Assembly (NCBI RefSeq): GCF_021233055.1 | Contig: NZ_CP089538.1 | Span: 2,620,501 to 2,684,500 of the forward strand | Origin: Spirosoma oryzicola | GTDB taxonomy: Bacteria; Bacteroidota; Bacteroidia; Cytophagales; Spirosomataceae | DNA: 64,000 bases | Direction of reading: 5' to 3' | In this document: piece by piece, positions 15,674 through 39,381 of the stretch | How the letters are laid out: the number at the start of each line of letters is the position of its first letter | Position numbering within the stretch: the first letter of the stretch is position 1 | Translations under genes and position numbers: made by a program | Notes under the pieces: model-generated | Seen by the model: the letters and a program-made list of their open reading frames with translations, nothing else | Databases searched by the model: none | What the model was told of the DNA's origin: nothing

Positions 15674-15697
15674 AGTCAAGTTACAGAAGTAGGTAGG

Positions 15698-17623: not shown

Positions 17624-17958
17624 TGTTTAGGTCCGCCGTCGTCGTTGGAATCAGATGTGTAAAGAATTGCGTTGACCTCGTCGGCTGGATTGGAACTGAC
17701 CGGGTCGGGCGTGGTGGGTGTTGTGCCATCGGGGGTAAAGTCCGCTGGGTTAGAGGTCACCACGATATCATCATCCGCCGGGCACTCCCGTGTTTTCCAC
17801 TGAAAACCGGCTACCGAATCGGGCAGGGTGTAGACGATCTCGGTACTATTGACCATGCCCGACTGAGCACTACAGCCACTTGCCAGCGTCACCCGAAGCC
17901 AGCACGCTACGCCGTCGATGGTGCCAGGCACGTAATCGTATTCTTGAATTGCTGCCAT
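17620..17958 (-). CDS. Small unknown phage late protein
   Basis: 112 residues, acidic, with a C-terminal region rich in Asp, Pro and Thr that is probably disordered (about residues 70-112). It has three Cys residues and no signal peptide. It starts two bases after the stop of the discoidin-containing gene and overlaps the start of the secreted 641-residue gene, so it is translationally coupled to both. No function is assigned. Confidence 0.55.
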   Translation of the reverse strand: MAAIQEYDYVPGTIDGVACWLRVTLASGCSAQSGMVNSTEIVYTLPDSVAGFQWKTRECPADDDIVVTSNPADFTPDGTTPTTPDPVSSNPADEVNAILYTSDSNDDGGPKQ

Positions 17959-17960
17959 GA

Positions 17961-22738: not shown

Positions 22739-22770
22739 GCCGCGAAATTGCCTAGGGCGCGCGCGCTAAT

Positions 22771-22788
22771 ACAGGACAACAATCAATC
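22771..22788 (-). promoter_or_regulatory. 18-bp prophage motif, copy 1
   Basis: On the minus strand this reads GATTGATTGTTGTCCTGT, identical to three other copies (28102-28119, 35896-35913, 36472-36489). It overlaps the last codons of the 22783-23298 gene and ends 32 bp before the ATG at 22738. It is a candidate late promoter or activator site. Confidence 0.7.
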
Positions 22789-23298
22789 CTGGTAAAGCAC
22801 GTCGCTTTCGGTCAGGGTCAAGTTCACCGGCACCAGCCAGGTGAACTGAATACCATAGCCGTATTTATCCCCACCCACTGGGCCAATCTTCTGACAGGGA
22901 AACTTCCGGATCTCCATGCTGATGTCCTGATCAGCAAGCTCTCCGCTTTCGCTGTCCTGAATCATCAGCGCAATGGCTTTAAGCAGGATAGCCCGGTTTT
23001 GCCGGTACACTTCCCGTTTGCCTGCTTTACTGGCTGAGCCGCCTGCCTTGCTCATCACGGCCATACTGCCCACGATCTGACTGTAGTAGTTGTCCCGGCC
23101 AGCCGTTTCGATATCTTCCTCGAAATCTTCCCAGACCAGTACTGGATTCGGACCAAAATTAAAACTGATCACTTCCGTGGGGGAGCCAACGTCTTCCACA
23201 AAACAGAATGTTTTATTGGATTCGCTGTAGGCAATGTCCGCCAGCCGGCTGGCCAGGCCCTCGCCGTAGGCTTTATAGAACTCAGACAGATCGGTCAT
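22783..23298 (-). CDS. Unknown phage tail-region protein
   Basis: 171 residues. The sequence is acidic in the first half and beta-rich at the end (YGIQFTWLVPVNLTL). Size and position between the lysis-type genes and the tail proteins fit a tail completion or terminator protein, but no family is recognised. The ATG overlaps the stop of the upstream gene. The last codons coincide with copy 1 of the 18-bp motif, so coding and regulatory constraints overlap here. Confidence 0.6.
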   Translation of the reverse strand: MTDLSEFYKAYGEGLASRLADIAYSESNKTFCFVEDVGSPTEVISFNFGPNPVLVWEDFEEDIETAGRDNYYSQIVGSMAVMSKAGGSASKAGKREVYRQNRAILLKAIALMIQDSESGELADQDISMEIRKFPCQKIGPVGGDKYGYGIQFTWLVPVNLTLTESDVLYQD

Positions 23299-24065
23299 TT
23301 CTCTAGTTTTGCTTTAAGCTCCTCGTTTTCCTTCATGATCGCGTCCAGCGTACTCAGCACCAGAAACAGGTTTGACCGCTCCAACTGGGCAAACGTACCC
23401 AGGGCACTCGTCTGCCTGGCTAATGATAAGCCCACATCCAGCCAGCTTCCACCGCCATCACCCTGGCCAGATTGTTTAAACAAATGCGGGAACTGAGTCG
23501 GAAAGCGGTCCAGACAACCTTCAAAGTTCATCAGCACGCCCTGCTGAATTTCGACCGGTACTATAGACACTCGTTTAATTTGCTCAGGATGTTCCCGGAT
23601 ATCAAACAGCTTCCGATAGCCTTCGCCGGAGGGTTGAAAGAAAAACGCGCGGGGCCGGTAGAGCGAAGCCATTAATTCAGCCAGGTCTTCGGGTTGACCG
23701 TCCGACCGGTAGCGATCGCGCGCAGCCTGGGCGTACATAAACTCCCCGAAGGTCAGAAAGTCAAGCCCATCGCCGGGACCGATGTAGGTGCGTTTACCGA
23801 TGCGCAGTTTAGGCAGCATCCACCGCTCAGGCCGTGTATCCAGAAAGTCAAGCAGGCTAATCAGACTCACCCGATTGTCATCGCTTAGCTTATGCCAGTA
23901 CTTGTGGCCAATGCCGTACCAAAGCTCGAGCAACACCCACCGACCAGCCGGATCGGAGTCTAGACCGATCCGCCAGTTCAGTAGCTGCCGGAAGTGGCGG
24001 GGGGTGATATCAGCCCAACCAGCCGGGCCGGTGAATGTCTTAGAGCCGATCTGGACGGTGTTCAT
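23295..24065 (-). CDS. Unknown phage structural-region protein
   Basis: 256 residues with several Trp-rich helices and a C-terminal coiled segment (MKENEELKAKLEK). I do not recognise the family. It overlaps both neighbours by four bases, the holin-like gene before it and the 171-residue gene after it, and so is part of one transcript. A role in tail assembly is inferred only from its place before the tail genes. Confidence 0.6.
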   Translation of the reverse strand: MNTVQIGSKTFTGPAGWADITPRHFRQLLNWRIGLDSDPAGRWVLLELWYGIGHKYWHKLSDDNRVSLISLLDFLDTRPERWMLPKLRIGKRTYIGPGDGLDFLTFGEFMYAQAARDRYRSDGQPEDLAELMASLYRPRAFFFQPSGEGYRKLFDIREHPEQIKRVSIVPVEIQQGVLMNFEGCLDRFPTQFPHLFKQSGQGDGGGSWLDVGLSLARQTSALGTFAQLERSNLFLVLSTLDAIMKENEELKAKLEK

Positions 24066-24391
24066 GCTGCTGCAGCTTTTGCCGCTGAGCTGCGCTGAGA
24101 GCGGTTTGTCCTTTCAACTTTCTGCTCGACAGCCGTCAGCCGGTTCTCCATATTCTTACCGCTATCGACTACGGATTTAGCCAGGTTGTCGACCGATGTA
24201 GCCAGTTGTAAATGGCTGGCGGAGTTCTGATTGACAATCTGAAACATCTTTTCCTGCGTTTCCTTGCGGTCATCAGCATGAGACTGAATCAATTCGGTGA
24301 GCTTTTTCCAAAGCGTGTAAATCATATACAGCGCAATGGCCGCAAAGGGGGAAATCCTTAAAATTTCGGTGATTATGGGTAGGATATCCAT
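24062..24391 (-). CDS. Holin-like small membrane protein
   Basis: 109 residues with a single N-terminal transmembrane segment (about residues 10-27, ISPFAAIALYMIYTLW). A long soluble coiled-coil region and an Ala/Lys-rich tail follow. One-TM proteins with this layout, placed next to a lysin, are often holins (BhlA/UviB-like). The assignment comes from architecture and neighbours: the lysin-like gene ends 6 bp before it and a spanin-like gene lies further upstream. It could also be a membrane-bound regulator. Confidence 0.5.
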   Translation of the reverse strand: MDILPIITEILRISPFAAIALYMIYTLWKKLTELIQSHADDRKETQEKMFQIVNQNSASHLQLATSVDNLAKSVVDSGKNMENRLTAVEQKVERTNRSQRSSAAKAAAA

Positions 24392-24397
24392 GCCATT

Positions 24398-24829
24398 TTA
24401 AGCGTTTACAATTGTGATAAATACGTCGTCATTCTGGGCTTCCGCTTCCCGCAGAAGATCCATGAGTAGCTTTAAGCCGACGGCTGAACGCTGTACCATG
24501 TTGCCCACGCGTTTTGTGCCCACCAGAATACAGCCGTCCGTATCTTTCGTCCAGTTACCGATGTGAATCCGGATGCCAGAAAAGAAGGGCACTTTTAAAA
24601 GCTCTGGGAGGACGATACCAAACCGTTTTGATTTGGTTAACTCCACTTTATAGCGACCAGCTGGAATCGCTGTTTCACCCCAAATTTTACCTTCACCTTT
24701 GGGGCCGAATCCCCGGATCGGGTCTTCCAGGGTAGCCAGGATCTGCACCGATTTATTTGCCTTGAAAACGGCTAAAACACCACCGGTATAGCTATCCGTA
24801 CGGTCAATTCGATTAAGCAGCAGTTCCAT
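24398..24829 (-). CDS. DUF5675-like protein, candidate endolysin
   Basis: 143 residues. The sequence has the hallmarks of the DUF5675 family: LATLEDPIR, then [33 protein letters not shown], and DTDGCILVG with a conserved Cys (about residue 100). Members are frequent in Bacteroidota phages, and their HxGN...DGC signature looks like a peptidase or transpeptidase site. The family assignment is my recognition; the enzyme activity is inferred. It lies between a spanin-like and a holin-like gene, which supports a role in lysis. Its start overlaps the upstream gene by 17 bases. Confidence 0.62.
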
Positions 24830-25379
24830 TGCGGGGGGTGATTATAAATTTTCGGGTAAACGAATACAGCCCGAAAGCGACCGCTATCAAGGCAAATAGA
24901 ACGATAGCCGCCGTTCGCCATCGTTCCATCCAGGTTTTGTACTTAGGATCGACACCCCAAATGGCTTGCTTTCTGGGTACTTTGGCCAGCACGTCCTTAG
25001 CAATAGTGGCCGAATCACACCCGCCCTCGACGCGCGTCTGATTCTTGTCCCGGTAGAGCCGTACCCAGCTGGTCCGATTATGCTCCTCGATGATTACGCG
25101 GCTGGTGTCGGTTCGAACAGTGATCACAGCCGAATCGCGGGGTATTGTAACCGCCACCGGTACCGTTACCATTGTGGTGTCCGTGACCGTTTGGCCGTAC
25201 TTGCGAAAAGCAGACTCGAAAGAAGAGCAACCCGACAACAGGTAAGCGATCAACCCAGCAACAGCCAGCAATAGCAATTGATACCGGCAATCACGAATGG
25301 CATTAACCAGGTGAATTAACGCCGTGATGGCGATCACCCGCAGGGTGCAAAACAGGACTCGAAATAGGACACGTGTCAT
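24813..25379 (-). CDS. Spanin-like membrane protein with lipobox
   Basis: 188 residues. A long hydrophobic stretch (about 35-50) ends in a lipobox-like LLSGCSS with Cys at about 51. A beta-rich periplasmic region with Thr/Val repeats follows ([16 protein letters not shown]). A C-terminal transmembrane helix (about 157-175, [16 protein letters not shown]) is present. A lipid-anchored segment and an inner-membrane segment in one polypeptide are what a unimolecular spanin needs to join the two membranes at lysis. This function is inferred from topology and from the neighbouring lysin and holin candidates. Some Bacteroidota prophages encode related proteins of unknown role at this spot. Confidence 0.5.
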
Positions 25380-25391
25380 AAGAAACGGTGG

Positions 25392-26315
25392 TTAAAAACT
25401 AACAATAGGTCGATTAATGATTGGGCTACCGCCGGAGGCCTCCGGGGAAGGGTTCGAGGGCGTATCGTTGATCAGGCCAGCTAATTCAGAAAGGAACCGG
25501 GAAGACTGCTCATCGAAGTAGGTGATACTACGCTCCAGTGACTTATCACTGGGAGCCGATCGGTAATTGGTCGTTAGCGATTGGGAGATGGCCAGCACCT
25601 GAACGCCGTCCTCGGTGATGCTCACCAGGCGTTCGCGCAGGGCACGGGCAACGGTCAAATACACCAGCGCGCGACGGGCAGCATCCAGCTGATCAGCCTG
25701 CTTATCCGTTAGGCTCGTACCCAGCAGGCCGGTCAGTTTATCGCCCAGCATCCTGCGAACCGACGACTCCGCCGTGCGCATCGATGCGGCCAGGGTCGAG
25801 AAAATCAGCCGCGACGATTTGATGTTGTAGTACCGGTTAAAAATCGCAGCCGATGGGATCAGTTTGCTTTTTTCCTGCTTGTACTCCTCCGATTCTTTGT
25901 AAGCTGGAAACGTGTCGAGATTCTGGGCCAGGAACTCCAGCAGCTGCTCGATGCCGTCAAAAATGGTATTCTGCAGCGAACGCGTCATGCGGTCGACCTG
26001 CCACTCAAACGCATCGTTGGTATCCGCCGTCTGGGTACGCATCAGTCCCAGATCGGTAATCCGGGCCGTGTTCAGACTGGCATAGCGGAGTAGGACCAGG
26101 GCGGCCATCGGCACCCCGACCAGGTTTAGCAATTCTTCTTCGTCCGGATTTGTCGCTCCGTTTTCGCCCAGCTGATCCAGCAGCTGATTGCCCACAAACG
26201 TGGAAAGAAACCGCTGGGCTGGTCGAAACGAAGGTGATAGCTGCTCGTGACCGACATCCCCCGAAAAATTAACGAAGCTGCGGACCTGCTCGACCGAGTT
26301 AAATATTAGGTTCAT
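25392..26315 (-). CDS. Phage head-tail adaptor-like protein (DUF6712-like)
   Basis: 307 residues, highly helical. The opening (NLIFNSVEQVRSFVNFSG) and the helical core with FLGNQ/LLDQL and RRMLGDKL are features I associate with a Bacteroidota phage family located next to the portal. Such proteins are probably head-tail connectors. The ATG overlaps the portal stop by four bases. The C-terminal 30 residues are Ser/Pro/Gly-rich and look disordered. Confidence 0.55.
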   Translation of the reverse strand: MNLIFNSVEQVRSFVNFSGDVGHEQLSPSFRPAQRFLSTFVGNQLLDQLGENGATNPDEEELLNLVGVPMAALVLLRYASLNTARITDLGLMRTQTADTNDAFEWQVDRMTRSLQNTIFDGIEQLLEFLAQNLDTFPAYKESEEYKQEKSKLIPSAAIFNRYYNIKSSRLIFSTLAASMRTAESSVRRMLGDKLTGLLGTSLTDKQADQLDAARRALVYLTVARALRERLVSITEDGVQVLAISQSLTTNYRSAPSDKSLERSITYFDEQSSRFLSELAGLINDTPSNPSPEASGGSPIINRPIVSF

Positions 26316-27667
26316 ACGGCAGTCTCTTGTTTAGCGGTGGTGGCACCGGTGCTCTGGGGAGTCATCACCGTATCCCGAAATTTGAAGGTTAGGCGGGGGA
26401 ACCGCTTCTTCCAGCCGTTGTACTCCGCGATAAATTTGAGGGGTTCCAGAATGCGGGACCGGTAGGGCGTGGATTTGGCAATGAAGATGTTGTACGCCTG
26501 GTTTTTATCCGAGCCGCCGGAGCGCTGGATATCTTTCGACTGAAAGCCAAACAGGGACGGATCGGTGCCCAGCGCATAAAGCAAATTAGCCTGGCCATCG
26601 GAGTAGTCTTCGTTGTACTTATTATCCTTCTCCTTATCGTCCAGGACGTGAATGACGACGCCTAATTCGTTCTTGTTATCGTCGAACCACTTGTCGGTTA
26701 GAATTGCTTTGTTGGCATTTTCAACGTTGGTCAGCGATTCGGTCATGCCTTTCAGGAACTCATCCCGGATAGCCCGTTTTGCGTCGAAATTAGACTCCGT
26801 CCAACGCTCACCGTACACCCGCTCCCAGTACTCCTCCGGCACTTCAATGTGATAGCGCAGGGCCATCTTATTGACCATGCCGAACTTTTTAAACTGGGGA
26901 ATGCTGGCCAGATAATCCAGCCAGCCCGACGTGCGCACAGCATCCCAAGCCGGCAGCTGGTAGTAGCTCTTACCCGGCGAGGGAAAACAAAGCGGATAAA
27001 TGAACTTGGGATCTTTCTGGCCACGTACCCACTCGATCCGGTCAGAGCGGTAGGGACTAATGGCCCGAATGAGTTCTGTATCCGCATCGTCTGCGGTTGC
27101 TTCGGGCCAGTTGGCATTGAGGTAGACTTTATCCAGTGCACCGGTGCGCTCATCCATGCGGCCCCAGCGGCAATACGCTGTTTCGTTGTTATGCAGCTGG
27201 TTGATCTTTTTGCGGTCCCGGCTCATGCAGAACTCCGGAAAGCCGTTCCACCACCAACCCATATCGACCGAAGCCTCCAGCAAGTAACGCTCGAAGGTGG
27301 TATCGGTTAAGAAATTGTAGATTTCGTCATCGTCGATCTCTTCATCCGAGTTCAGCGAGGCCGTGGCCATTACGCCACCGGCAACCCAGAGCGCTGCTTT
27401 GTCGGCGATCGCCTGGGGGATGATGGTTGACTTGCTGGCCAGCTCAATAATTTTCTGGGGATAGTCATTACCCTCACCCCAGAACGTAATTTTATCGTCA
27501 CCGGGCGAAAGCATCCGGCGCTTGACTGGCTCAGTGGGCATCACGCCCAGTTCAGCGGGTGAGGTGGGCGTCCCTTTCACGGTAGGGAATCCTTTCAGTG
27601 AAACAACCGCCCGAGCCGCTGGCAATAGAGCGATATTCCCCGCATCGTTTAGTGTAACTTCACTCAT
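26312..27667 (-). CDS. Phage portal protein
   Basis: 451 residues. The N-terminal third has WGEGNDYPQKIIELASKS and many acidic turns. The middle has conserved Trp/Tyr segments (YHIEVPEEYWERVYGERW), a probable long helical stem (FDAKRAIRDEFLKGMTESL), and then the typical portal crown helix region with ALGTDPSLFGFQSKDIQRSGGSD. The portal ring is the DNA entry and exit channel and the docking point for the terminase. The order portal then adaptor is normal, but here both lie after the terminase genes and a terminator. The assignment rests on sequence impression and context. Confidence 0.75.
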   Translation of the reverse strand: MSEVTLNDAGNIALLPAARAVVSLKGFPTVKGTPTSPAELGVMPTEPVKRRMLSPGDDKITFWGEGNDYPQKIIELASKSTIIPQAIADKAALWVAGGVMATASLNSDEEIDDDEIYNFLTDTTFERYLLEASVDMGWWWNGFPEFCMSRDRKKINQLHNNETAYCRWGRMDERTGALDKVYLNANWPEATADDADTELIRAISPYRSDRIEWVRGQKDPKFIYPLCFPSPGKSYYQLPAWDAVRTSGWLDYLASIPQFKKFGMVNKMALRYHIEVPEEYWERVYGERWTESNFDAKRAIRDEFLKGMTESLTNVENANKAILTDKWFDDNKNELGVVIHVLDDKEKDNKYNEDYSDGQANLLYALGTDPSLFGFQSKDIQRSGGSDKNQAYNIFIAKSTPYRSRILEPLKFIAEYNGWKKRFPRLTFKFRDTVMTPQSTGATTAKQETAV

Positions 27668-28029
27668 CGTACCGACTGACCGTTAACTTCTAGGATTAAG
27701 TGGAGGTGGATTTTGCGCAGCTGATCGCTGCCAACAGCCCGGATCAGCCGGGTCCATTTAGCTTTGAGCGTTCGTTTGGCCTTCTTTTTGGGGCCAACCT
27801 GCTCGAATTGTTCGGTTTTTGTAACCCGACCGCCGTTGACGTGCCAGACGGCCTTTTCATAGCGAATGATCTCGCCACCGGTGCCTTTGTCTTCGTCAGC
27901 TGTGCAAAAAGCGATGGCGAAGGGTATAGGAACCCCCCGCGCATCGCAGCTTTCGATGATTGCCAGAGCCTCCTGCCAGGAGAGTAGTGTCGTCGGACGT
28001 GTGGCAGACTTACGGTTTACATGGCTCAT
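27664..28029 (-). CDS. Unknown phage protein upstream of portal
   Basis: 121 residues, basic in the C-terminal half (KKKAKRTLKAKWTRLIRAV), with no recognised family. It overlaps the portal ATG by four bases and so begins the second late transcription unit. Copy 2 of the 18-bp motif lies 72 bp before its ATG. It may be a small nucleic-acid-binding or head-assembly protein; this is a guess from charge and place. Confidence 0.58.
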   Translation of the reverse strand: MSHVNRKSATRPTTLLSWQEALAIIESCDARGVPIPFAIAFCTADEDKGTGGEIIRYEKAVWHVNGGRVTKTEQFEQVGPKKKAKRTLKAKWTRLIRAVGSDQLRKIHLHLILEVNGQSVR

Positions 28030-28101
28030 CGTCGTTTAAGTGAAGCGTTCGGGTTACGGACCGAAATAGGGCGGCAAGTTGCGCCCACAGCGGGGCGAAA
28101 A

Positions 28102-28119
28102 ACAGGACAACAATCAATC
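28102..28119 (-). promoter_or_regulatory. 18-bp prophage motif, copy 2
   Basis: Exact copy of GATTGATTGTTGTCCTGT on the minus strand. It lies in the divergent gap between the 121-residue gene (minus) and the small plus-strand regulator-like gene at 28164. A rho-independent terminator at 28713-28744 ends the preceding transcript, so a new start is needed here. Confidence 0.75.
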
Positions 28120-28163
28120 AGCGTGCACCGCTAATCTCAAAATTGAAATGGCTACCTTTAGGC

Positions 28164-28388
28164 ATGGCAACGTTTAACACCAACAACGCCCTGCGTTTGC
28201 TGCTTTACGAGGAAGAATACCTACAGTACTGGCTCGATGCCGGCTACACCAAAGCGGACCGCGCGCGGACCCGGCATCGATTTAAAAATGATCAGCTGAG
28301 TCTGGACTTGATTGAGGAGATGCTCGACAAGTGCGGCTTCAAAGTCGCGCAGGAGAAGAAATGGAACAAACCCCAGAAAAAGCTGTGA
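28164..28388 (+). CDS. Small putative DNA-binding regulator (only plus-strand gene in the late region)
   Basis: 74 residues from the ATG at 28164; an upstream ATG at 28143 would add seven. It is helical, with a WLDAGYTKADRARTRHRFKN segment and SLDLIEEMLDKCGFKV, a pattern I associate with small HTH-type phage or plasmid regulators of Bacteroidota. It runs against all neighbouring late genes and begins 45 bp from copy 2 of the 18-bp motif. It is therefore a candidate for the factor that acts on that motif, but this link is inference. A -7-like TACCTTTA (28153-28160) lies very close to the ATG. Confidence 0.55.
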   Translation: MATFNTNNALRLLLYEEEYLQYWLDAGYTKADRARTRHRFKNDQLSLDLIEEMLDKCGFKVAQEKKWNKPQKKL

Positions 28389-28712
28389 GTTTGATTCAAT
28401 CACCTGGCATGATTGGCCCTGCAATTCTGAAAAAACCCAGAAAAACGCGCAGTTTCCGTTTTACGCTTTTTTGAGGGTTAACCGTCGTGCGCTCAGATGA
28501 ATAGCAGTGAATCGCGTTTCAAATTTGATACGAAAATTTTAGCCTGTTTTTCAACGATTTTCGGCTAAATGGCTGATTTGTAAGGGTCGCTTGCCTGAAA
28601 ATAATGGTATATCAACTTTTCCCGGTTTCCTGACCCCGCTACGCACTACCGGTGAGTGCAGTTGCAGGGGGTGGCGGGGGTCGTGCATATATGATTGGGC
28701 CTTCGACCGGGC
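28389..28712. other. Non-coding stretch between the small regulator gene and the terminase terminator
   Basis: No open frame with coding character was found on either strand. The left part is rich in A/T runs, including AAAAACGCG...CGTTTT, which could be a weak terminator of the plus-strand gene. Around 28650-28690 there is a G-rich run (GGGGGTGGCGGGGGTC). Confidence 0.4.
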
Positions 28713-28744
28713 CAAATAAAAAGCCCAGCCTTGAGGCTGAGCTT
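28713..28744 (-). terminator. Rho-independent terminator after large terminase
   Basis: On the minus strand AAGCTCAGCCT-CA-AGGCTGGGCTT forms an 11-bp stem with one mismatch, followed by TTTTATTT. It lies 30 bp after the terminase stop and ends the first late transcript. Confidence 0.85.
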
Positions 28745-28773
28745 ATCGTCATGCTTGCAGTCGATCTTGTAGT

Positions 28774-30516
28774 CTAGTTACCAAAGACAGCACCCAATAG
28801 GTCGGTCTTACCAGGCTCCACAATGGTTAGATACCAGAACACGGTATCCATTGCATCGGTATAGTGGGTGGTCTCATCCTGGGGTACTTCATCGACGTAC
28901 TTCTCATCCGTCTTATCTTTCTCAAAGCCATTCCTACCCTCTTTGACCTTTGCATTGCCCATTGCCTTCACAACCTTACGCATGTTCTCCCGGTTGAAGC
29001 GTTGCTTGGCAAAGCGGGTGTCGATCTCTCTGAGGCACCAGCCCCAGGCCAGGAACCTGGCATCGTGCGAGGGTACTTTCGAGAAGTACTTGGTCTTGAC
29101 CTTCCAGCCAGCAGCCTTCAGTCCTTTGATCACTTCATCCGCATAGGTCATCGGGGACTTACCATCCTTACCAACAGCTGTAGGGTCATACACATAGGTA
29201 AGCTGCTTTTTGTAGAAATAGCGGTAATACTCCACAAACCGGGCTACTACATCCTGTACCTTATCGGGGTACAACACATCAAAGGATTTGAGGTACCTGA
29301 CTTCATCAAAACCTGATTTATTCATCAGGTGTAGTTTTGAAAAACGCTGGCCAACAACAATACCGTTAAAGCTGCTACCATAGTCCATTCCGATGGTGAG
29401 CGGCTGGTTATGGTCCAGATCCGCATCCTTCCGGCAGTCATTGTACGATTCCCCCGCTATAACCCGTTTGTCGACAAAATTGTAATCCGTCGCGTCGTAC
29501 TGGTGATGGTGCTGGTCAAAGTCCGGATAGAAGCCGTTATCGACGCCATCCTGCTCTTTATTAAGAATAAACGCATCGAAAGCGCTGGGCTTAAACATGC
29601 GTTTCTTTTCCCTAAAATAAGCCAGGCCCAACGCGTGCACGTTGGCAAAGCTGGAAGCGGCTGCATAATGGACCAGCCCTTTACGAAGCTCATTCAATTG
29701 GCGCTCGTAGCTCTCGATCCGTTTGAGCCGGGCCGCATTGCGCGCGCGGGTTTTGAGCCGCAGTCGTTCATTGTAAAGCTCAAGCTGAATAGCCAGAATC
29801 AACTCGATGGCTTTCTGGTGGTGTGGCTTGAGTGACTCTTCTCTGTCCTTTAGAATCCATTTAGCCTCCCGCTCGGTCGGCATATCGGTGGTAAAGGTCA
29901 CGCTGTGATGTTCCGGGATATCGCCATAACGTTCGTAACCGCCCCGGTTAATGGCCATCACTTCCGAATCGAGTTTATCCTTTTTAAACGTTTTGGCTTC
30001 GTCACCCAGAATAGCCGAGATGCTCATACCATTGGCAGAGCCGGGCCGGTCCTGGCTGACCATGCGAAGAACCGACACGCAGTCGGTTCCCGGATTACGC
30101 ATAAAAATAGAGTGGTGCGGATCGAGCGGAGCGTTGTAGGGCAAACGCAAATTATACTTCTTATCAGGAAAGCGACCCTGCCAGAAATCGACGTTGCGCA
30201 CGTAGCCCAGCGCTTCCATACCCTCCATGAGTTCGGGCAATGTGCGGTCCATGAGTTGCACATAGGTAGCGCCAATGACAACGATCGACGAACGCGCTAA
30301 TTTCTTTAGCAACTGATGCAGTTTAGGAGCCAGCACACCCCGCGTTTTTCCGGTACCACGTCCGGCCACAACGGTGGTGTACTGCGCCCCGATCGCCAGA
30401 CAAATCATCTGGAGATAGTTAAAGTGCATTCGTTTTTGCTCCCGTAGGTCTTCTTCAGGACTGATGGACGCCTTTGGGGCCGGAAGACTATCCCGGCGCA
30501 TGAGTTGTTGATTCAT
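28774..30516 (-). CDS. terL: Phage terminase large subunit
   Basis: 580 residues. The Walker A motif AGRGTGKT sits at residues 51-58 and a Walker B motif AILGDEA at about 168-174, the ATPase that drives DNA packaging. The C-terminal nuclease half has TIGMDYGSSFNG (about 373-384), a typical first acidic residue of the RNase H-like nuclease. The length is normal. It starts two bases after the small subunit gene and is followed by a strong terminator. Confidence 0.93.
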   Translation of the reverse strand: MNQQLMRRDSLPAPKASISPEEDLREQKRMHFNYLQMICLAIGAQYTTVVAGRGTGKTRGVLAPKLHQLLKKLARSSIVVIGATYVQLMDRTLPELMEGMEALGYVRNVDFWQGRFPDKKYNLRLPYNAPLDPHHSIFMRNPGTDCVSVLRMVSQDRPGSANGMSISAILGDEAKTFKKDKLDSEVMAINRGGYERYGDIPEHHSVTFTTDMPTEREAKWILKDREESLKPHHQKAIELILAIQLELYNERLRLKTRARNAARLKRIESYERQLNELRKGLVHYAAASSFANVHALGLAYFREKKRMFKPSAFDAFILNKEQDGVDNGFYPDFDQHHHQYDATDYNFVDKRVIAGESYNDCRKDADLDHNQPLTIGMDYGSSFNGIVVGQRFSKLHLMNKSGFDEVRYLKSFDVLYPDKVQDVVARFVEYYRYFYKKQLTYVYDPTAVGKDGKSPMTYADEVIKGLKAAGWKVKTKYFSKVPSHDARFLAWGWCLREIDTRFAKQRFNRENMRKVVKAMGNAKVKEGRNGFEKDKTDEKYVDEVPQDETTHYTDAMDTVFWYLTIVEPGKTDLLGAVFGN

Positions 30517-30518
30517 GG

Positions 30519-31085
30519 CTATAAGGGTTCTTCGTCCTGAATTAAGAGCTCTCGCCGGGCGGCTTCTTCACCGATAAATTTGGCGACCGTTTCGAATAGT
30601 TTCGGGATTGGCTTAGCCCCGATCAGACGCGGGTCGAAATCGATTAGCAGTTCGATGTTTTTGCCCTGGTTGTCTTCTTTCTGCTCGACTTCATCACCGA
30701 CGCCCATTTTCTGCAGGATCGCATCGCACTGAGCGACTACTTTATAATCTTCAGCTAGGGAAGCCTTCACGCGGTTATCCCGGATCTGGGCAACCAGCAT
30801 GATGCGATCCCACTCCTTATTGGTTTTTTCCATCGATGCAAAAAACCGTTTCATGTTGCGCACGTCGCGCCAGGCTTGGGGTTCACTGACTTCACAATCT
30901 TTCATCAGAAAGTTGACCGTGAAGGAATCTGTTAGCGGTCGCTGGGTTAGGACAAACTCCCTGGCTTTCTTCCAGCGCAAGAGTTCAGCTTGCAGTTCAG
31001 GCGTAAGGGGGTATTTGTCCTCATCCTGGTACCACTTCATGATCTTGTCAAAGATCAGCTCGAAGCGGGCTTCTTCGGTTTTCAT
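30519..31085 (-). CDS. terS: Phage terminase small subunit (probable)
   Basis: 188 residues. It is mostly helical, with a possible helix-turn-helix region (LMKDCEVSEPQAWRDVRNM, about 60-80) that would bind the packaging site. It has a central coiled segment for oligomer formation. The C-terminal part (about 150-188, IELLIDFDPRLIGAKPIP) probably contacts the large subunit. It is placed directly before the large subunit with a 2-bp gap, which is the main support. Confidence 0.72.
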   Translation of the reverse strand: MKTEEARFELIFDKIMKWYQDEDKYPLTPELQAELLRWKKAREFVLTQRPLTDSFTVNFLMKDCEVSEPQAWRDVRNMKRFFASMEKTNKEWDRIMLVAQIRDNRVKASLAEDYKVVAQCDAILQKMGVGDEVEQKEDNQGKNIELLIDFDPRLIGAKPIPKLFETVAKFIGEEAARRELLIQDEEPL

Positions 31086-31097
31086 AAAAGCTACGGT

Positions 31098-31850
31098 TTA
31101 GCCCGCTCCGGGCGGGGGCGAATCATGGTTGCTCTTTAGCTCTAATTGTTGTTTACGGGCCAGGTACAGATCGTACTGGACTTGATAGGACTGACGTTGC
31201 TCAGGCGTCAGGTTCTTTTTCTTCAAATAGCCTTTATAGCGGCTCACATAGCTACGTGTATTGAGTAGGAGCGACCGCTGGTCGACGTCCTGTTCAATGG
31301 GTTGGGGTAAATAGCCGTACTGGGTAAAGAAATCCAGCTGACTGTATAGCTCATCAAGTTGAAGCGTCAGGCGTTTAACCTGGTAGGCGTATGGCCGGCG
31401 TTGGATCTGGGCCGCTTCACTATTGCCCAGGTGCTCATTGGCCCGAATCCAGGCTTTGGCATCCGTGCGCAGATCCATCAGCTGAAAGATCTGTCGACGA
31501 ATACTTTGCACCGCTTCGGGTTCATCCGTTGGGGGCGTTTCTACGCGCAGCGGATTGGTCGTAACGACAACAACGGAATTACTCCCGGAGCCGTAATCCA
31601 TCGACACCGCCAGGGGAGCCGAAGATTGTTTTGCTGCCAAGGGCGAAAGATCCGGCCCAGGCTGCAGCATACTATTCTGTTTGTTGCACCAGGCGGTTAG
31701 TTCAGTCTCTAACCGGTTACGGGTATACGCATCTTCGCCCATATCCAGAACACTCAGGGCAAAGCCAGTATAACCTGTTTCACGTAGCAGAATGAGACCA
31801 GCCTCGTAGTCGCCAGAGGATGTTAGCCAGGAAGTAATGCGCTCCAGCAT
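31098..31850 (-). CDS. Unknown phage late protein
   Basis: 250 residues, rich in Gln and Leu and largely helical. The first 45 residues could form a small helical domain. The C-terminal half (about 115-235) has helix pairs with many Arg/Tyr residues and ends in a Pro/Gly tail. No family is recognised. It is co-transcribed with the terminases, starting about 60 bp after the small gene upstream. It could help tail or head assembly; the sequence does not decide. Confidence 0.58.
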   Translation of the reverse strand: MLERITSWLTSSGDYEAGLILLRETGYTGFALSVLDMGEDAYTRNRLETELTAWCNKQNSMLQPGPDLSPLAAKQSSAPLAVSMDYGSGSNSVVVVTTNPLRVETPPTDEPEAVQSIRRQIFQLMDLRTDAKAWIRANEHLGNSEAAQIQRRPYAYQVKRLTLQLDELYSQLDFFTQYGYLPQPIEQDVDQRSLLLNTRSYVSRYKGYLKKKNLTPEQRQSYQVQYDLYLARKQQLELKSNHDSPPPGAG

Positions 31851-31909
31851 GATGATTACTATAAAAAATAGCGGACGTAAAGACGGCCGCTATTTTTAGG
31901 TAGATTCGG

Positions 31910-32125
31910 TTAAATCGTTTTTTGGACCTTATCCCAGCCAAGCCGATCCAGCAACTCAAGAAGCCCCAGATTATCGGTTAGCTGCTTAATGGTGTAGCTC
32001 CGCTGCAGCAGCGGGATGTATACTTCCGTTACACCCTTTTTGATACCGACCAGCTTATAGGTTGCTGGACCCAGCGGTGTGGAAGCTACCTCCGTCACCA
32101 CCGGGGCTTTGTCTCCAGGCTGCAT
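31910..32125 (-). CDS. Small unknown phage protein after tail tube
   Basis: 71 residues from the ATG at 32125, which follows the tail-tube stop by one base; a longer frame from 32281 would overlap the tail-tube gene by 155 bases and is less likely. It is a compact sequence with VYIPLLQRSYTIKQLTDNLGLLELLDRLGW at the end and no family. Small genes in this position in siphophages often encode tail assembly factors. Confidence 0.6.
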   Translation of the reverse strand: MQPGDKAPVVTEVASTPLGPATYKLVGIKKGVTEVYIPLLQRSYTIKQLTDNLGLLELLDRLGWDKVQKTI

Positions 32126-32126
32126 C

Positions 32127-32648
32127 TTAAGCTGGATCAGCGGCCATCGTGATGGTCGACGCTTTGTACTTGATCTTGTTAGCGGCAAAGCAGCTATACT
32201 TGAAGTTCCAGCCACGTCCGTCACCCGAGTTCTTGGTTGCATCGTACTCCGGCATGATCTGAACCTGAAAATCAGCATCACCTACCTGGAAGAGTTCAGG
32301 AATACCTGGTACGGGGACCAGCGCAATCCAGCGCTCGTTTTTAGCATCGTTGGCGAATGCTTCGATTTCATCCGATTCACCAGGGTGATAAAACTCACCT
32401 GTTACGTCGAAGCTGTTGCGGTCAGGACCGCCCAGGGGTGAATACTTCACCGTACCCGTATCTTTCGTTACGTACAACTCAATGAAGCCTTTACCCACTG
32501 GGAATGTATGCGCTTCAGTGATGTTGTATTTTCCAGCAGCTGGCTTCTGAAGAATCAGAAAGTCCAGAAAAGGCGCTAACAAAATACGCTGGGCCGTACC
32601 ACCCATCCGGCTCACTTTACCCGGATCTTTGATTGATTTATAGGCCAT
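32127..32648 (-). CDS. Probable major tail tube protein
   Basis: 173 residues, predicted beta-rich, with Gly/Pro turns and no signal peptide. The length and composition (GKYNITEAHTFPVGKGFIEL, SFDVTGEFYHPG, GWNFKYSCFAANKIKY) suit a tail tube protein that stacks in rings around the tape measure protein. It sits after the capsid genes. The position is normal and the family assignment is inferred. Confidence 0.6.
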   Translation of the reverse strand: MAYKSIKDPGKVSRMGGTAQRILLAPFLDFLILQKPAAGKYNITEAHTFPVGKGFIELYVTKDTGTVKYSPLGGPDRNSFDVTGEFYHPGESDEIEAFANDAKNERWIALVPVPGIPELFQVGDADFQVQIMPEYDATKNSGDGRGWNFKYSCFAANKIKYKASTITMAADPA

Positions 32649-32651
32649 CGG

Positions 32652-33059
32652 TTAATCCTGTTTTTCGATTAAAAAGCCCGCCTGAATGCTAACAAGCTCC
32701 TTTTGAAGTCCTTTATTGCTGATCAGATCAGCCACCGTGTAGGTCTCACCTTTGTACTTGAAAGACTTGGCGTGCACCTCAAATTTTTTCTTGTTCACTT
32801 CGATGATGGGGTGAGACGACGGTTTGGTCTCCAGTTCATTCACCCGCGCCTGCAGCGAAGTAATCGTTTCTTTCTGGCCGGTGATGACGCTAGCTGCTTC
32901 GCTAAGTGCACCAGCGGCATCGTCTTTGGCTTCGAGGGCAATATCCAAGGCGTCTTTCGTAGCCTGATGCGCATTCTTCTCAGCCTCCAGCTGAGCCAGA
33001 AGTGACTCCACGGTCACCTCTGGCCCTTCCCCCGCAGGGGATTCTTTTATTTCAGACAT
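32652..33059 (-). CDS. Coiled-coil phage head-region protein
   Basis: 135 residues. A long coiled coil (about 15-80, LLAQLEAEKNAHQATKDAL... ETITSLQARVNELE) is followed by a small C-terminal domain (NKKKFEVHAKSFKYKGETYT). It lies between the capsid and tail tube genes. Such proteins in related phages are head fibres or decoration proteins, which is a plausible but unproved role. Confidence 0.6.
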   Translation of the reverse strand: MSEIKESPAGEGPEVTVESLLAQLEAEKNAHQATKDALDIALEAKDDAAGALSEAASVITGQKETITSLQARVNELETKPSSHPIIEVNKKKFEVHAKSFKYKGETYTVADLISNKGLQKELVSIQAGFLIEKQD

Positions 33060-33114
33060 GTCGGTTTGTTATCGGTGAGTTAGGGTATAAAAAGTAAATC
33101 GGTAGGACTACCGA

Positions 33115-34059
33115 CTACTCCTGATCATTACAGAAAATAAGCTCAGGTAAGATGAAGCCAACGCCATACCACCAGTCGGTTAGAATGTTGACCTGACGCT
33201 TATCAGCCTGTACGTCGAAACGCTTCTGGTTCTGGGTCTTTTTCTTCAGGACAATGCTGTTGTCCTTTGGCGTACAGAAAATACGGCTCTTGCCTTGCAT
33301 CGACGCCCGGCCTACGATCGTGATATTGGTATCTTTAACCGTATCGTTGAGCGCGTTATCGACTGTGTCCTTGCCATATACTTTGCGCAAACCACGACGG
33401 TAGCGTTTTTTCAGACGCTCGTTCATGTTGAGCTCCATTGGCTGGCTCCAGTACTTCTCATCGATCTGATCGCACAAATCCTCGACATACTCAACCATTT
33501 CAACCTCATCGGTTGGTACGACGCCCATCGTAATAGGTGTGGTCCGCGTGCCAGCAATATGCTGTTTGATGATGGTCAAGAAACCGTCCATACCAGCACC
33601 AGCAGCACCTACTACACCAGCTGTTGGCTCAACGCGTACACCTTTGCCGATTTCGAGCGTTTCCATATCGTCTTCAATCTGGTTGACGATCTGCTGCTCG
33701 ATCCACCAACGCACAAACGGCCAATCCTTCGGACTGACGTTGTTATCGGCCAGAAAACCTAGCCAGCTGGCTTCCAGATCGTGCGGAGTTTCCGAGGTGT
33801 CCACTTTGTGGTGGAACATCTTAATTTGCACCGGATCAAAAGCGAGTGGGTTGATGGGCGTAAAGCCTTTTTGATACGCCTGTACCAGCCGGCCAAAGGA
33901 AACCTTACCCGCCTGCCAGATCGTGTCGTCAGTCAGCTGGGTGGTGAACATACTTTCGGAGGCCAACTTCCGGCGCAACACCTGGTAAAGTCGGCTAATG
34001 TTTTGTCCCCGATCCTGGTAATACGCACCATATTCGGTTACTACATCCTGAATATCCAT
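33115..34059 (-). CDS. Probable major capsid protein
   Basis: 314 residues. The gene follows the protease-scaffold gene, the usual position for the major capsid protein. The sequence has a helical N-terminus (possible delta domain), a middle region with WPFVRWWIEQQIVNQIEDDMET (the long helix of HK97-type coats) and a Gly-rich loop (GVVGAAGAGMDGFL). A beta-rich C-terminus ends in WWYGVGFILPELIF. The context is strong, though no signature motif defines the fold. Confidence 0.75.
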   Translation of the reverse strand: MDIQDVVTEYGAYYQDRGQNISRLYQVLRRKLASESMFTTQLTDDTIWQAGKVSFGRLVQAYQKGFTPINPLAFDPVQIKMFHHKVDTSETPHDLEASWLGFLADNNVSPKDWPFVRWWIEQQIVNQIEDDMETLEIGKGVRVEPTAGVVGAAGAGMDGFLTIIKQHIAGTRTTPITMGVVPTDEVEMVEYVEDLCDQIDEKYWSQPMELNMNERLKKRYRRGLRKVYGKDTVDNALNDTVKDTNITIVGRASMQGKSRIFCTPKDNSIVLKKKTQNQKRFDVQADKRQVNILTDWWYGVGFILPELIFCNDQE

Positions 34060-34116
34060 TTTTTAGAAAGAGTTACGGAATTATAAATTGATTGGTTATT
34101 TGCGCGAAGCCGCGTT

Positions 34117-35418
34117 TTATTTTGTCTGCGATGCGGCAACGTTGTCCCACAGCCAGCTGCCTTCCAGGGATTTGTTATGAGCTAGGTTAGCGATCGTTTT
34201 GTCTGAATCGCTCTGCTCACCCGAATCCGCCTGGACTTCGTTTTTCTTTTGCACCTGCGTTTTTTCGGCTGCGTTCATCGCGCCGTATTCTTCCGCTTTT
34301 TCTTTAAATTCATTACGCTCGGTGGTCAGCGTACTGACTTTGTTATTAGCCGTCGTTAGCTCATTGGTCAAACGAGTTACTTCAGCCGTAGCCGTTGCCA
34401 GGGCTGTGGCATCGCCAGCGCCTTTATTGGCATTCTCAACAGCGGCATCGAGTTGGGACTGTGAAACGATGGCCAGTCCGGGGTAGGCGGCATTCAATTC
34501 GGTATTGATAGCCTCCAACTGAGCGTCGGACAAATCGGCTGCAGCCGTACCTTTCACCGCTGCCAGAGCGGATAATTTTACGTAACCTAACATGGTTGTA
34601 CGGGGGGTTGTGTTTGAAGTTGTCGTAGAAAAAGATTTGAACGCTGATTTCAGATCAGCAATACCGTCGATCAGACCGTTCTCCAAGGAATCGGTACCAT
34701 TGAATAATCGACCCTTGAGTGCGGCTTCATTAATGCCAGGCCGGCGCGCTAACACGTAATCGATGAAGCGCTGGGCTTCGGAATCAGCGGCCTGCTGGAG
34801 TAATTTGAAATTACCGTCAGCCGCCTGGCGAAATTCTTCGTTTTTCTGGGTCGACTGTTTAGCGTAAAGCTCTTTGGTCACGATACCCATTTTATCAAAG
34901 TACTTGCTCCAGTCCTGATAGGAGATCAGCGTACCAATCGAGCCAGCCCGGTCGTTTGGCCGGCTGGCATAGATGGCATCACAGGCGCAGGCGACCATGT
35001 AGTGGGCCGAAGCGGCCATCCCGTAGTCGATAAAAGCAAACGTCGGTATGGGTGAAGCCTGGATCTTATCCGCCAGTTTATTGCCGGCGTTAGCGGCCCC
35101 ACCTGGACCATTGATCCGCACAATCAGCCGGGCTGCATTGGGATCGGCATAGATCATGTCCAGCTTCGCGCACAGGTAATTCACGTAGTAGTCGTAAATC
35201 ACACCCGTGATGTTAAGGATAACGGTACTACCTTCTTTCTGCGCAGCCGGGTAGTAGATCCAGTTCGGATCAGCGTAGTGAATTGGATCTTCGTCAATCT
35301 CCAGCGCAAGCACCCCATTGCCCGAAACAAGCTGAGCCAGTAACATGGTGCCGGCTTCGCGTTCAATAAGCCAGGGCTGGGCCATAAAGGCCATCAGATC
35401 GAGATTGTGTCTAAGCAT
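34117..35418 (-). CDS. Prohead protease (S49/SppA-like) fused to a scaffold-type coiled coil
   Basis: 433 residues from the ATG at 35418, which overlaps the upstream stop by eight bases; more upstream ATGs would run far into that gene. The N-terminal about 290 residues contain an S49 peptidase region: VRINGPGGAANAGNK, then the nucleophile segment DYGMAASAHYMVACACD and GSIGTLISYQDW. The rest is low in structure and contains a long coiled coil (ATALATATAEVTRLTNELTTAN, then TTERNEFKEKAEEYGAM) of scaffold type. Protease and internal scaffold in one frame allow the scaffold to be removed during head maturation, as in lambda-like phages. The major capsid gene follows. Confidence 0.78.
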   Translation of the reverse strand: MLRHNLDLMAFMAQPWLIEREAGTMLLAQLVSGNGVLALEIDEDPIHYADPNWIYYPAAQKEGSTVILNITGVIYDYYVNYLCAKLDMIYADPNAARLIVRINGPGGAANAGNKLADKIQASPIPTFAFIDYGMAASAHYMVACACDAIYASRPNDRAGSIGTLISYQDWSKYFDKMGIVTKELYAKQSTQKNEEFRQAADGNFKLLQQAADSEAQRFIDYVLARRPGINEAALKGRLFNGTDSLENGLIDGIADLKSAFKSFSTTTSNTTPRTTMLGYVKLSALAAVKGTAAADLSDAQLEAINTELNAAYPGLAIVSQSQLDAAVENANKGAGDATALATATAEVTRLTNELTTANNKVSTLTTERNEFKEKAEEYGAMNAAEKTQVQKKNEVQADSGEQSDSDKTIANLAHNKSLEGSWLWDNVAASQTK

Positions 35419-35863
35419 ACGCAGAGCGCTGGGTGGAAGTCCCTTTGAGGTTGAGATCATAGCCACGCTGGCCCGGTACGTCGGGATCAGTGCCCAGTTC
35501 GTGGCTGAAGGTGAGTGCCTCGTCGGGCAGACCCACAATGCGAACAAGTCCGCTGTTATCAGTAAAGCGGACGATTAATTTTTCGTAAGCAAACAGAGCA
35601 TCGATAGCCGCAGATTTGACGGCATTATCGTCAGGCGAAAAGCCCTTAATTTCGAAGGAGTATAAACGACCGTTATCGGTGTGCTGGCTACCCATGCGGT
35701 ACTGGAGCGTACCCTGGGTGCAATAGATACGCGTCCAATCGAAGCCGGCTTTGAAGGTAATAGCACCAGGGACCTGCGTAGGCTCGACCCCCACAGCCGC
35801 CACTACATCAAGCCACCTGCCTCCGCCCGGATTCCATTTGCCACTGCGTGCTATCTCGCTCAT
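35411..35863 (-). CDS. Unknown phage late protein
   Basis: 150 residues, rich in Gly, Thr and aromatic residues, with beta-strand patterns (AITFKAGFDWTRIYCTQGTLQYR) and a C-terminal segment SHELGTDPDVPGQ. It could be a small head or tail completion protein. The start at 35863 overlaps the end of the preceding gene by 56 bases. Copy 3 of the 18-bp motif ends 32 bp before this ATG. Confidence 0.6.
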   Translation of the reverse strand: MSEIARSGKWNPGGGRWLDVVAAVGVEPTQVPGAITFKAGFDWTRIYCTQGTLQYRMGSQHTDNGRLYSFEIKGFSPDDNAVKSAAIDALFAYEKLIVRFTDNSGLVRIVGLPDEALTFSHELGTDPDVPGQRGYDLNLKGTSTQRSAYA

Positions 35864-36413
35864 GGGGCAAGATTACGAACTCAGCATCCGGCGAAACAGG
35901 ACAACAATCAATCGGCATAACGGGCGTGCTGTCAGCCGCCAACGAACCTGAACACATCGACCGGCGATTCCGGGCGTAATAACGAAGGGCGGTTTGCAAA
36001 CTCAGTTCCTCCTCGGTAATGCCGTAGCGATTCAAAAACCGCTCGACTGAGGCTTTGATGCCCATCCCGTAGCTCATGCGCAGGGTGACTTCTTCGGCCA
36101 TTTTTTCGAAGAACATCTGGCGGACGAAATCATTAAAAACCGAGATCTTCTGGGGCGTCAGTTTGGCTCCGGCTCCGTAGCGTTGCACCCAGGCGGGAAT
36201 ACCAATCGTCAACTCGGCTGTTAGCCGGCTGTACTTGCGGGGTAGGCGCGTATCAAAATGACAGTAGCGATCCAGGCTGTTGTAAAGAAAACCAGCGTAG
36301 GGGTTCGAATAGCCGCCTAGCGTAAAGGGCTCTGTGTTGTACTGAGAAGAAAGGAATTTTAAAACCAGCGGATAAACCGGGATCGTAAACGTTGACAAAG
36401 GCGAAGGGGTCAT
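35808..36413 (-). CDS. First gene of the late operon (unknown)
   Basis: 201 residues with many aromatic and Arg residues (YNSLDRYCHFDTRLPRKY) and a helical segment (FFEKMAEEVTLRMSYGMGIKA). No family is recognised. It is the first gene after the early-operon terminator and the fourth motif copy, so it opens the late region. The end contains the codons for copy 3, reading as IDCCPV, and overlaps the next gene by 56 bases. If the true end is earlier or the frame is broken the overlap would shrink, but no alternative is evident. Confidence 0.58.
   Translation of the reverse strand: MTPSPLSTFTIPVYPLVLKFLSSQYNTEPFTLGGYSNPYAGFLYNSLDRYCHFDTRLPRKYSRLTAELTIGIPAWVQRYGAGAKLTPQKISVFNDFVRQMFFEKMAEEVTLRMSYGMGIKASVERFLNRYGITEEELSLQTALRYYARNRRSMCSGSLAADSTPVMPIDCCPVSPDAEFVILPHERDSTQWQMESGRRQVA
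35896..35913 (-). promoter_or_regulatory. 18-bp prophage motif, copy 3
   Basis: Exact copy of GATTGATTGTTGTCCTGT on the minus strand. It lies inside the 3' part of the 201-residue gene and 32 bp before the ATG at 35863, the same spacing as copy 1. Confidence 0.7.
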
Positions 36414-36471
36414 TATGCTGAAGCGAGTGGGGGTTAACTGGAGCGAAGCTAGTTACCCTTTACCAGTCGAT

Positions 36472-36489
36472 ACAGGACAACAATCAATC
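36472..36489 (-). promoter_or_regulatory. 18-bp prophage motif, copy 4
   Basis: Exact copy of GATTGATTGTTGTCCTGT on the minus strand. It lies between the early terminator (36577-36617) and the first late ATG (36413), the place where a late promoter is expected. No canonical -7 element of the host type is seen beside it. Confidence 0.78.
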
Positions 36490-36576
36490 GTGTTTCGTTA
36501 ACACCCTAAATTTAACAACTGTGACGCATTTGTACGGTATGATATAATGAAAATATATTCTTTGCCTTGGTAGTTC

Positions 36577-36617
36577 TAAAAAAACGTTAGGCTGCTCAAT
36601 TATGGCAGCCTAACGTT
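36577..36617 (-). terminator. Rho-independent terminator ending the early operon
   Basis: A perfect 13-bp stem (AACGTTAGGCTGC at 36583-36595 with GCAGCCTAACGTT at 36605-36617), loop of nine, and TTTTTTT on the minus strand. It is 50 bp after the stop of the 106-residue gene. Confidence 0.92.
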
Positions 36618-36668
36618 AAGTATCTCCAGAAACGAAAAGTTAGTGATACCGCAAAAGTTCAAGACTTT

Positions 36669-39305: not shown

Positions 39306-39381
39306 GGCGGCAGGGAGCCGGACTCGAACCGACAACCGCAGCATTTAAAGTGCTGTGCTCTACCAATTGAGCTATCCCACC
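39305..39381 (-). tRNA. tRNA with UUA anticodon (putative ochre suppressor), prophage-located
   Basis: The minus strand folds into a complete cloverleaf: D arm GCTC-AATTGGTA-GAGC, anticodon arm CAGCA-CTTTAAA-TGCTG, five-base variable loop, and T arm GTCGG-TTCGAGT-CCGGC. The seven-base loop places the anticodon at 39346-39348 as UUA, which pairs with the codon UAA. CCA is encoded (39305-39307). The acceptor stem GGTGGGA against TCCCTGCC needs a bulged T and one G-U pair, so the acceptor is imperfect and it could be decayed. A tRNA-Lys (UUU) differs in the third anticodon base. Which amino acid it carries cannot be read from the sequence. Confidence 0.75.

Follow-up and report, generated by a model that had tools for sequence, protein, structure and literature searches.

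What is the role of four identical 18-bp repeats that precede late genes of a prophage in Spirosoma oryzicola? The prophage lies in a stretch of 64,000 nucleotides (nt) of contig NZ_CP089538.1 (positions 2,620,501 to 2,684,500; hereafter the window), and its minus-strand genes extend from ~41.7 to 4.5 kb, the early ones coming first. The initial annotation of this DNA proposed that the repeat (i.e. GATTGATTGTTGTCCTGT) is a phage-specific late promoter or activator site. This proposal gained support from related prophages, which carry motifs of their own in mostly the same gene slots, in a strict orientation and at a fixed distance from a downstream box. Two amendments were needed: the repeat is the upstream half only of the putative promoter, whose downstream half is a degenerate host-type -7 box, and the protein that reads it is probably a product of 201 amino acids (aa) encoded between two of the copies. 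In the reading that we consider probable, each of the four repeats forms the upstream half of a late promoter of this tailed prophage, at which a phage DNA-binding protein, most likely this 201-aa product, brings the host polymerase to a box situated exactly 24 nt past the TGTC core of the repeat.

Four identical repeats precede late genes

As described in the initial annotation, four exact copies of the 18-mer are present in the same orientation.

22771..22788, minus strand: putative late-promoter upstream element, copy A, exact match, preceding tail-side genes
28102..28119, minus strand: putative late-promoter upstream element, copy B, exact match
35896..35913, minus strand: putative late-promoter upstream element, copy C, exact match, within the 3' end of the candidate regulator gene
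36472..36489, minus strand: putative late-promoter upstream element, copy D, exact match, preceding the candidate regulator gene

The gene for the 201-aa protein, ahead of the protease gene, has copy D at its start and copy C at its end; copy B is located 3' of the terminase gene and copy A 5' of the tail-side genes. Distances from the end of the motif to the late-gene ATG are 32 (A), 72 (B), 32 (C) and 58 nt (D), in agreement with the 32-72 bp range and the equal 32-nt spacing of the copies at 22771 and 35896 that had been described, and the dinucleotide directly after each copy is AT or TT, i.e. the (A/T)T noted earlier. These same two copies had been thought to be embedded in the 3' end of the previous gene; this is true of the copy at 35896, which lies inside the preceding frame, whereas the copy at 22771 overlaps only the preceding stop codon. 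Rho-independent terminators had been placed before copies D and B, and both were borne out by folding, which gave -23.5 kcal/mol (z -8.7) for 36574-36620 and -16.4 kcal/mol (z -4.2) for 28712-28750.

36577..36617, minus strand: intrinsic terminator predicted by folding, ending the early region upstream of copy D
28713..28744, minus strand: intrinsic terminator predicted by folding, after the terminase gene and upstream of copy B

The earlier claim of no other full copies was borne out, with no further copy in the window at up to three mismatches (shuffle expectation 0.02). In the whole host genome (7.33 Mb), the four copies are the only exact sites, and at ≤3 mismatches 15 sites were found: these four, one with two mismatches (93-106 kb from the four copies) and ten with three. 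The reversed control pattern gave five sites at the same threshold. At ≤1 mismatch, the 18-mer is absent from 98 relatives, leaving its own genome alone among 99. Exact scans of public collections detected the 17-mer in 15 viral stretches and the 18-mer in 8 genome stretches (257 Gb), as compared to a chance expectation of ~7.5 by our own arithmetic. None of the 24 occurrences of the 17- or 18-mer in other DNA (one of which has two mismatches, several being near-identical to one another) has a box 24 nt past TGTC (i.e. at gap 24), and no regulator match was obtained at the public-collection stretches that bear them. A chance or mobile repeat without function would fit both the shortness of an 18-bp sequence and the near-chance frequency of exact 18-mers elsewhere; this explanation is barely credible, as 21 prophages have a sequence of their own combined with the same ruler (see below).

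A degenerate -7 box follows each repeat

The initial annotation reported no match to the host -7 element, and thereby overlooked a degenerate -7 box that begins 20 nt past each copy.

22743..22750, minus strand: -7-like box CAATTTCG of copy A, 24 nt after TGTC, with the ATG of 20750-22738 4 nt on
28074..28081, minus strand: -7-like box CAACTTGC of copy B, at the same position, a variant with 5/7 consensus positions, ATG 44 nt on
35868..35875, minus strand: -7-like box TAATCTTG of copy C, 24 nt after TGTC, with the ATG of 35411-35863 4 nt on
36444..36451, minus strand: -7-like box TAGCTTCG of copy D, 24 nt after TGTC, ATG 30 nt on

In Flavobacterium johnsoniae, the -7 element TAHHTTTG spans -12 to -5 with 4-5 nt to the start, the -33 element is weak, and leaders of >10 nt are found in 87% of predicted transcripts with a probable promoter (PMC6847099). 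By this 4-5 nt rule the predicted starts of copies A and C coincide with the ATG, and a leaderless mRNA is predicted for each. The layout of a phage repeat with a TGTC-like core, 24 nt and a -7-like box before a gene start, in the presence of the regulator gene, fits copies A, C and D. Copy B departs from it by its variant box, and an ATG 4 nt past the box is found for A and C only. As the downstream half is of host type, complete replacement of the sigma factor would be unnecessary.

Related prophages carry repeats of their own

Relatives were identified using the large terminase of the window as query and compared at the slots occupied by the genes that follow the repeats.

28774..30516, minus strand: large terminase, by homology to proteins annotated as terminase in other phages
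35411..35863, minus strand: first late gene, slot C, predicted leaderless
27664..28029, minus strand: slot B gene
20750..22738, minus strand: slot A gene, predicted leaderless

The terminase search reached 15 of 36 genus genomes (E 1e-3) and 31 of 222 family genomes (E 1e-30) at 36 places, and these 36 prophages, the window's included, form the collection. Gene order is largely common to the nine prophages first collected; in the remainder, slot genes were sought by tblastn, which yielded none for G211 and slot B only for G136, G217, G253, G255 and G256.

The 18-mer of the window occurs in none of the other 35 prophages. Its absence from the 98 relatives first seemed to speak against a conserved element, until the relatives' own motifs were seen. 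A repeated motif of their own is present in 20 of the 35, mostly in the same gene slots (e.g. GCTTGAGTGTTGTCATT, GTCATCACGCCTGTAACG, GGTCGCCTGATGTCCTGTTTT and GCGTCATCGCGGGTGTCGCGG). Strict patterns for these motifs, with the window included, gave 86 copies in 21 of the 36 prophages and no antisense copy. When 18 strict patterns were tested across prophages, the sole sharing was between G050 and G220, cross matches of G009a and G009b being due to overlap of the DNA of the two loci. Contig C21 of genome G009 harbours two different family members ~25 kb apart on opposite strands, each with a different motif.

The distance from repeat to box is fixed

Scanning of gaps of 16-33 nt from TGTC located strict boxes at gap 24 in 38 of the 86 copies and in 0-2 copies at every other gap. 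Boxes with at least 6 of 7 positions of a consensus drawn from the same data were found at gap 24 in 61 of 80 copies and at gap 23 in 12 of 80, as compared to 0-3 of 80 at each other gap from 18 to 30 and 2.2% of random positions. This set of 80 comprises copies anchored by the repeat alone, with G144b and G058 excluded because their anchors were placed to fit the ruler, and one copy may count at two gaps. An ATG lies 3-5 nt past the box in 42 of the 80. Fifteen of the 36 prophages have no catalogued repeat, 14 of which could be scored by slot windows (G211 has none); using a core alphabet also drawn from these data, the core-24-box arrangement was present in 20 of their 31 slot windows (11 fail) versus 4.4% of random windows. 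G204 does not fit gap 24, and two G019 copies have CGTC in place of TGTC and run into terminator-like repeats. The strict Bacteroidota form of the box (i.e. TANNTTTG) is found in 1 of 86 copies, with C at -12 and C or G at -6 as frequent departures from the consensus. TTTG is not found at -33, where the window has CTGT and relatives have ATTT, GCGG or other sequences.

The repeats would occupy -50 to -33, a location in which a lysogenic repressor could silence late promoters, and gene 41949-42449 exhibits weak Cro/C1-type matches. That the repeats are operators of this kind is nevertheless very unlikely: no copy at ≤3 mismatches lies near the divergent region at ~41.7-41.9 kb, and a rigid 24-nt spacing from a degraded -7 box is needed for contact by an activator or sigma factor but not for the action of a repressor.

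In some relatives the box is associated with a hairpin. For 8 of 86 copies, a perfect inverted repeat (≥8 bp) includes the box in its left arm, as compared to 2 of 86 windows shifted by 400 nt, both counts being small. The strongest inverted repeats are of 18 bp (G009b) and 13 bp (G001b, whose right arm ends with ATG).

G009b 27182, G001b 21398, G052 9618, G005 23954, G220 23817 and G058 12919 (joined-locus positions): copies whose box lies in the left hairpin arm or where that arm ends

Some of these copies adjoin an ATG or a T run. A read-through RNA would be folded or stopped at such a site and an RNA begun at the promoter would escape, which fits a start just past the box. An RNA-level element acting in read-through transcripts, by anti-termination or control of translation, would be in keeping with these hairpins and with the position of two window copies after terminators; it is rendered highly improbable by a conserved ruler that leads to a promoter-like box and often to an ATG, which in the case of A and C is only 4 nt from the box.

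Isolated phages have similar repeats

The terminase search also reached the annotated phages Leef_1, Ingeline_1, laban6-1, 6H and Mea-Yong924-1, all of which have TGTC-type repeats of shorter length. The box is at gap 24 in 18 and at gap 23 in 8 of the 27 copies in isolated phages, a result that is partly circular as the motifs were chosen from a scan already requiring gap 24. Strand bias is free of this circularity: searched with the exact patterns, Ingeline has a single antisense copy and the remaining four phages have none. The Helgolandviridae/Duneviridae phages (i.e. Leef, Ingeline, laban and 6H) resemble the window in their terminase relatives, regulator relatives and TGTC-type repeats, and differ from it in having shorter repeats, such as TGTCCTTT, and low GC. 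The recorded host of Mea-Yong924-1 is the cyanobacterium Microcystis, which, if correct, is at odds with a box of Bacteroidota type. In the paper describing Leef and Ingeline, the word 'promoter' is absent from the main text (PMC8776804). Phage 6H (L161, reverse complement 9554 and 11938) contains two identical TGAC-24-box stretches ~2.4 kb apart.

A candidate regulator is encoded between two copies

The product of the gene between copies D and C is the protein that probably reads the repeat.

35808..36413, minus strand: candidate late regulator, 201 aa, from conservation and position
34117-35547, minus strand: head maturation protease (phrog_53)

With the window or G050 as starting point of the search, the regulator gene was found in 40 of 43 elements, and with laban as starting point in 31; the next best early gene tested, among early genes of three phages, was found in 11 of 43. 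In 10 prophages the TGTC core begins 1-21 nt past the end of the regulator gene. No Pfam or PHROG match was obtained for the 201-aa protein of the window or for four members of the regulator family, and fold and sequence searches gave no significant solved structure. Three helices are predicted for residues 87-157, with a weak resemblance to a helix-turn-helix (HTH) in fold-search matches that are themselves weak. Among viral models, the best match (E 6.9e-9) is to a Leef_1 protein that is itself uncharacterised, and sources that name the candidate call it a hypothetical or uncharacterized protein. A gene annotated as LuxR-like in Leef, Ingeline, 6H and laban was considered as the regulator and rejected, being present in only 5 of 43 elements when grown from laban.

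Covariation was examined in 17 of the 21 catalogued prophages, four being dropped for lack of one of the genes. Similarity between motifs correlated with identity between regulators (rho 0.72; partial 0.39, p 0.0005, with three genes controlled). Several observations weigh against assigning the repeat to the 201-aa protein. Two neighbouring genes correlated with the motif equally well (0.75 and 0.71), and with all five other genes controlled the regulator retained 0.15 (0.21 for the HTH part) versus 0.32 and 0.35 for the neighbours. Covariation was therefore rejected as proof of a cognate regulator; linkage may explain this outcome, which gives the regulator no support. The failure of covariation to favour this gene over its neighbours, the lack of a family match for the protein and the coverage of the -33 position by the repeat would all suit late promoters at which a sigma factor made by the phage, or some other protein, reads the repeat, the 201-aa product being otherwise employed. 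We judge this arrangement unlikely. Early genes other than that of the 201-aa protein reached at most 11 of 43 elements versus 40 of 43, and no sigma-like match was present among the scanned early proteins of the window. In five prophages other than the 10 mentioned above the regulator gene is located 6.2-10.6 kb before the protease gene, and a separation of ~6-11 kb, seen in these five and in Mea-Yong924-1, also speaks for the 201-aa gene.

In the subfamily of the window, the next promoter appears to be encoded in the C-terminal codons of the regulator (a DCCP peptide, with ILPHERD over the box and start of the next gene), so that DNA site and protein tail would be constrained together. This comparison included the window gene and P0002-P0008, the latter from protein sequence alone.

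Proposed mechanism and significance

Under the activator reading that we prefer, the 201-aa product of 35808-36413 would be made at the end of the early phase and would bind the repeat, in the region from about -50 to -33. It would thereby hold the host RNA polymerase, equipped with the usual sigma factor, at a weak box that is too poor for use alone, and transcription would begin 4-5 nt past this box, for copies A and C at the ATG itself, producing leaderless messages. Because copy D precedes the regulator gene, positive feedback would result. Each phage has its own repeat sequence, presumably with a matching regulator. A broader and more tentative proposal, which we rate at slightly below even, is that this is a widespread, undescribed late system of Bacteroidota tailed phages, in which a new type of fast-diversifying DNA-binding family takes the -33 contact of the polymerase and reads a phage-private repeat, with a rigid 24-nt ruler and many leaderless late mRNAs.

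To our knowledge, the late-transcription switch of Bacteroidota tailed phages has hardly been described, and a literature search, with subscription journals outside its coverage, found no paper on the late promoters of these phages. The layout provides a testable, purely sequence-based rule for locating late promoters and their start sites, and it points to a regulator candidate that is widely shared. Orthogonal promoter parts may also be obtained from it, in a phylum for which few tools exist. If the proposal is true, these phages constitute a natural set of mutually insulated promoter/activator pairs, and many late mRNAs are leaderless in a phylum whose host messages mostly carry leaders. 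These bacteria lack Shine-Dalgarno sequences (PMC6847099), and the predicted leaderless starts would bear on how translation is initiated without them.

Other features of the prophage and its relatives

Additional features of the window are as follows.

26312-27667, minus strand: 'portal', named from position only
4461-7703, minus strand: tail tape measure protein
1735-2307, plus strand: gene for a DNA invertase/resolvase, close to the tail end of the prophage
39309-39381, minus strand: tRNA gene with anticodon TTA (Rfam tRNA, 57.4 bits), which would read the stop codon UAA

A tRNA with the same anticodon, differing at 20 bases, is present in the related prophage G001b (L071:12669-12741). TAA is the stop codon in 22 of the 40 listed prophage genes. 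Read-through of TAA by means of the prophage tRNA was considered and rejected: an in-frame next gene follows 8 of 22 TAA, 3 of 9 TAG and 0 of 9 TGA codons, TAA being not above TAG. The early region of G001b also contains an 1843-aa reading frame (14511-20042 of the joined locus) that spans long exact internal repeats. In the host genome, ~60 kb to the left of the window, a distant second terminase relative (G000:C1:2560705-2562087, E 4.8e-13) perhaps belongs to another prophage.

Comparison with known systems

The putative promoters resemble the Bacteroidota housekeeping promoter (TTTG / TAHHTTTG) in the form of the box and its distance to the inferred start (PMC6847099). They differ from it in that the -33 position holds phage-specific sequence.

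Late promoters of phage T4 occur within hairpin arms, as at the lysozyme gene. The box in the left hairpin arm of some relatives is comparable, in that only read-through RNA would fold; no such arrangement was seen at the window copies. The middle promoters of T4 are closer in design. In these, sigma appropriation involves the MotA box and AsiA, and a phage element replaces the -35 region with the host -10 kept (PMC2988021); the layout proposed here would follow a similar logic. The MotA box is a single 10-bp consensus centred at -30 and 12 bp ± 1 from the -10, whereas here the motif is longer in most relatives, varies in sequence between phages, has 24 nt between TGTC and box, and would lie at about -50 to -33 if transcription starts 4 nt past the box. 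No Pfam or PHROG match to MotA or AsiA was found among the scanned early proteins of the window, which is weak evidence of absence.

Late promoters of phage Mu, with activator C, and its middle promoter, with Mor, are a further parallel. The late ones are four in number, and at each of them an activator site precedes -35 and -10 elements that depart from consensus (PMC4461284); the putative late promoters of the window would be built alike. No match to the C/Mor family was obtained for the four regulator-family members in Pfam or PHROGs, the fold search being weak. The C site of Mu has dyad symmetry, unlike the asymmetric repeat of the window. In its working principle the proposed system would resemble both T4 middle and Mu late promoters, although this likeness of logic does not make it a member of either class.

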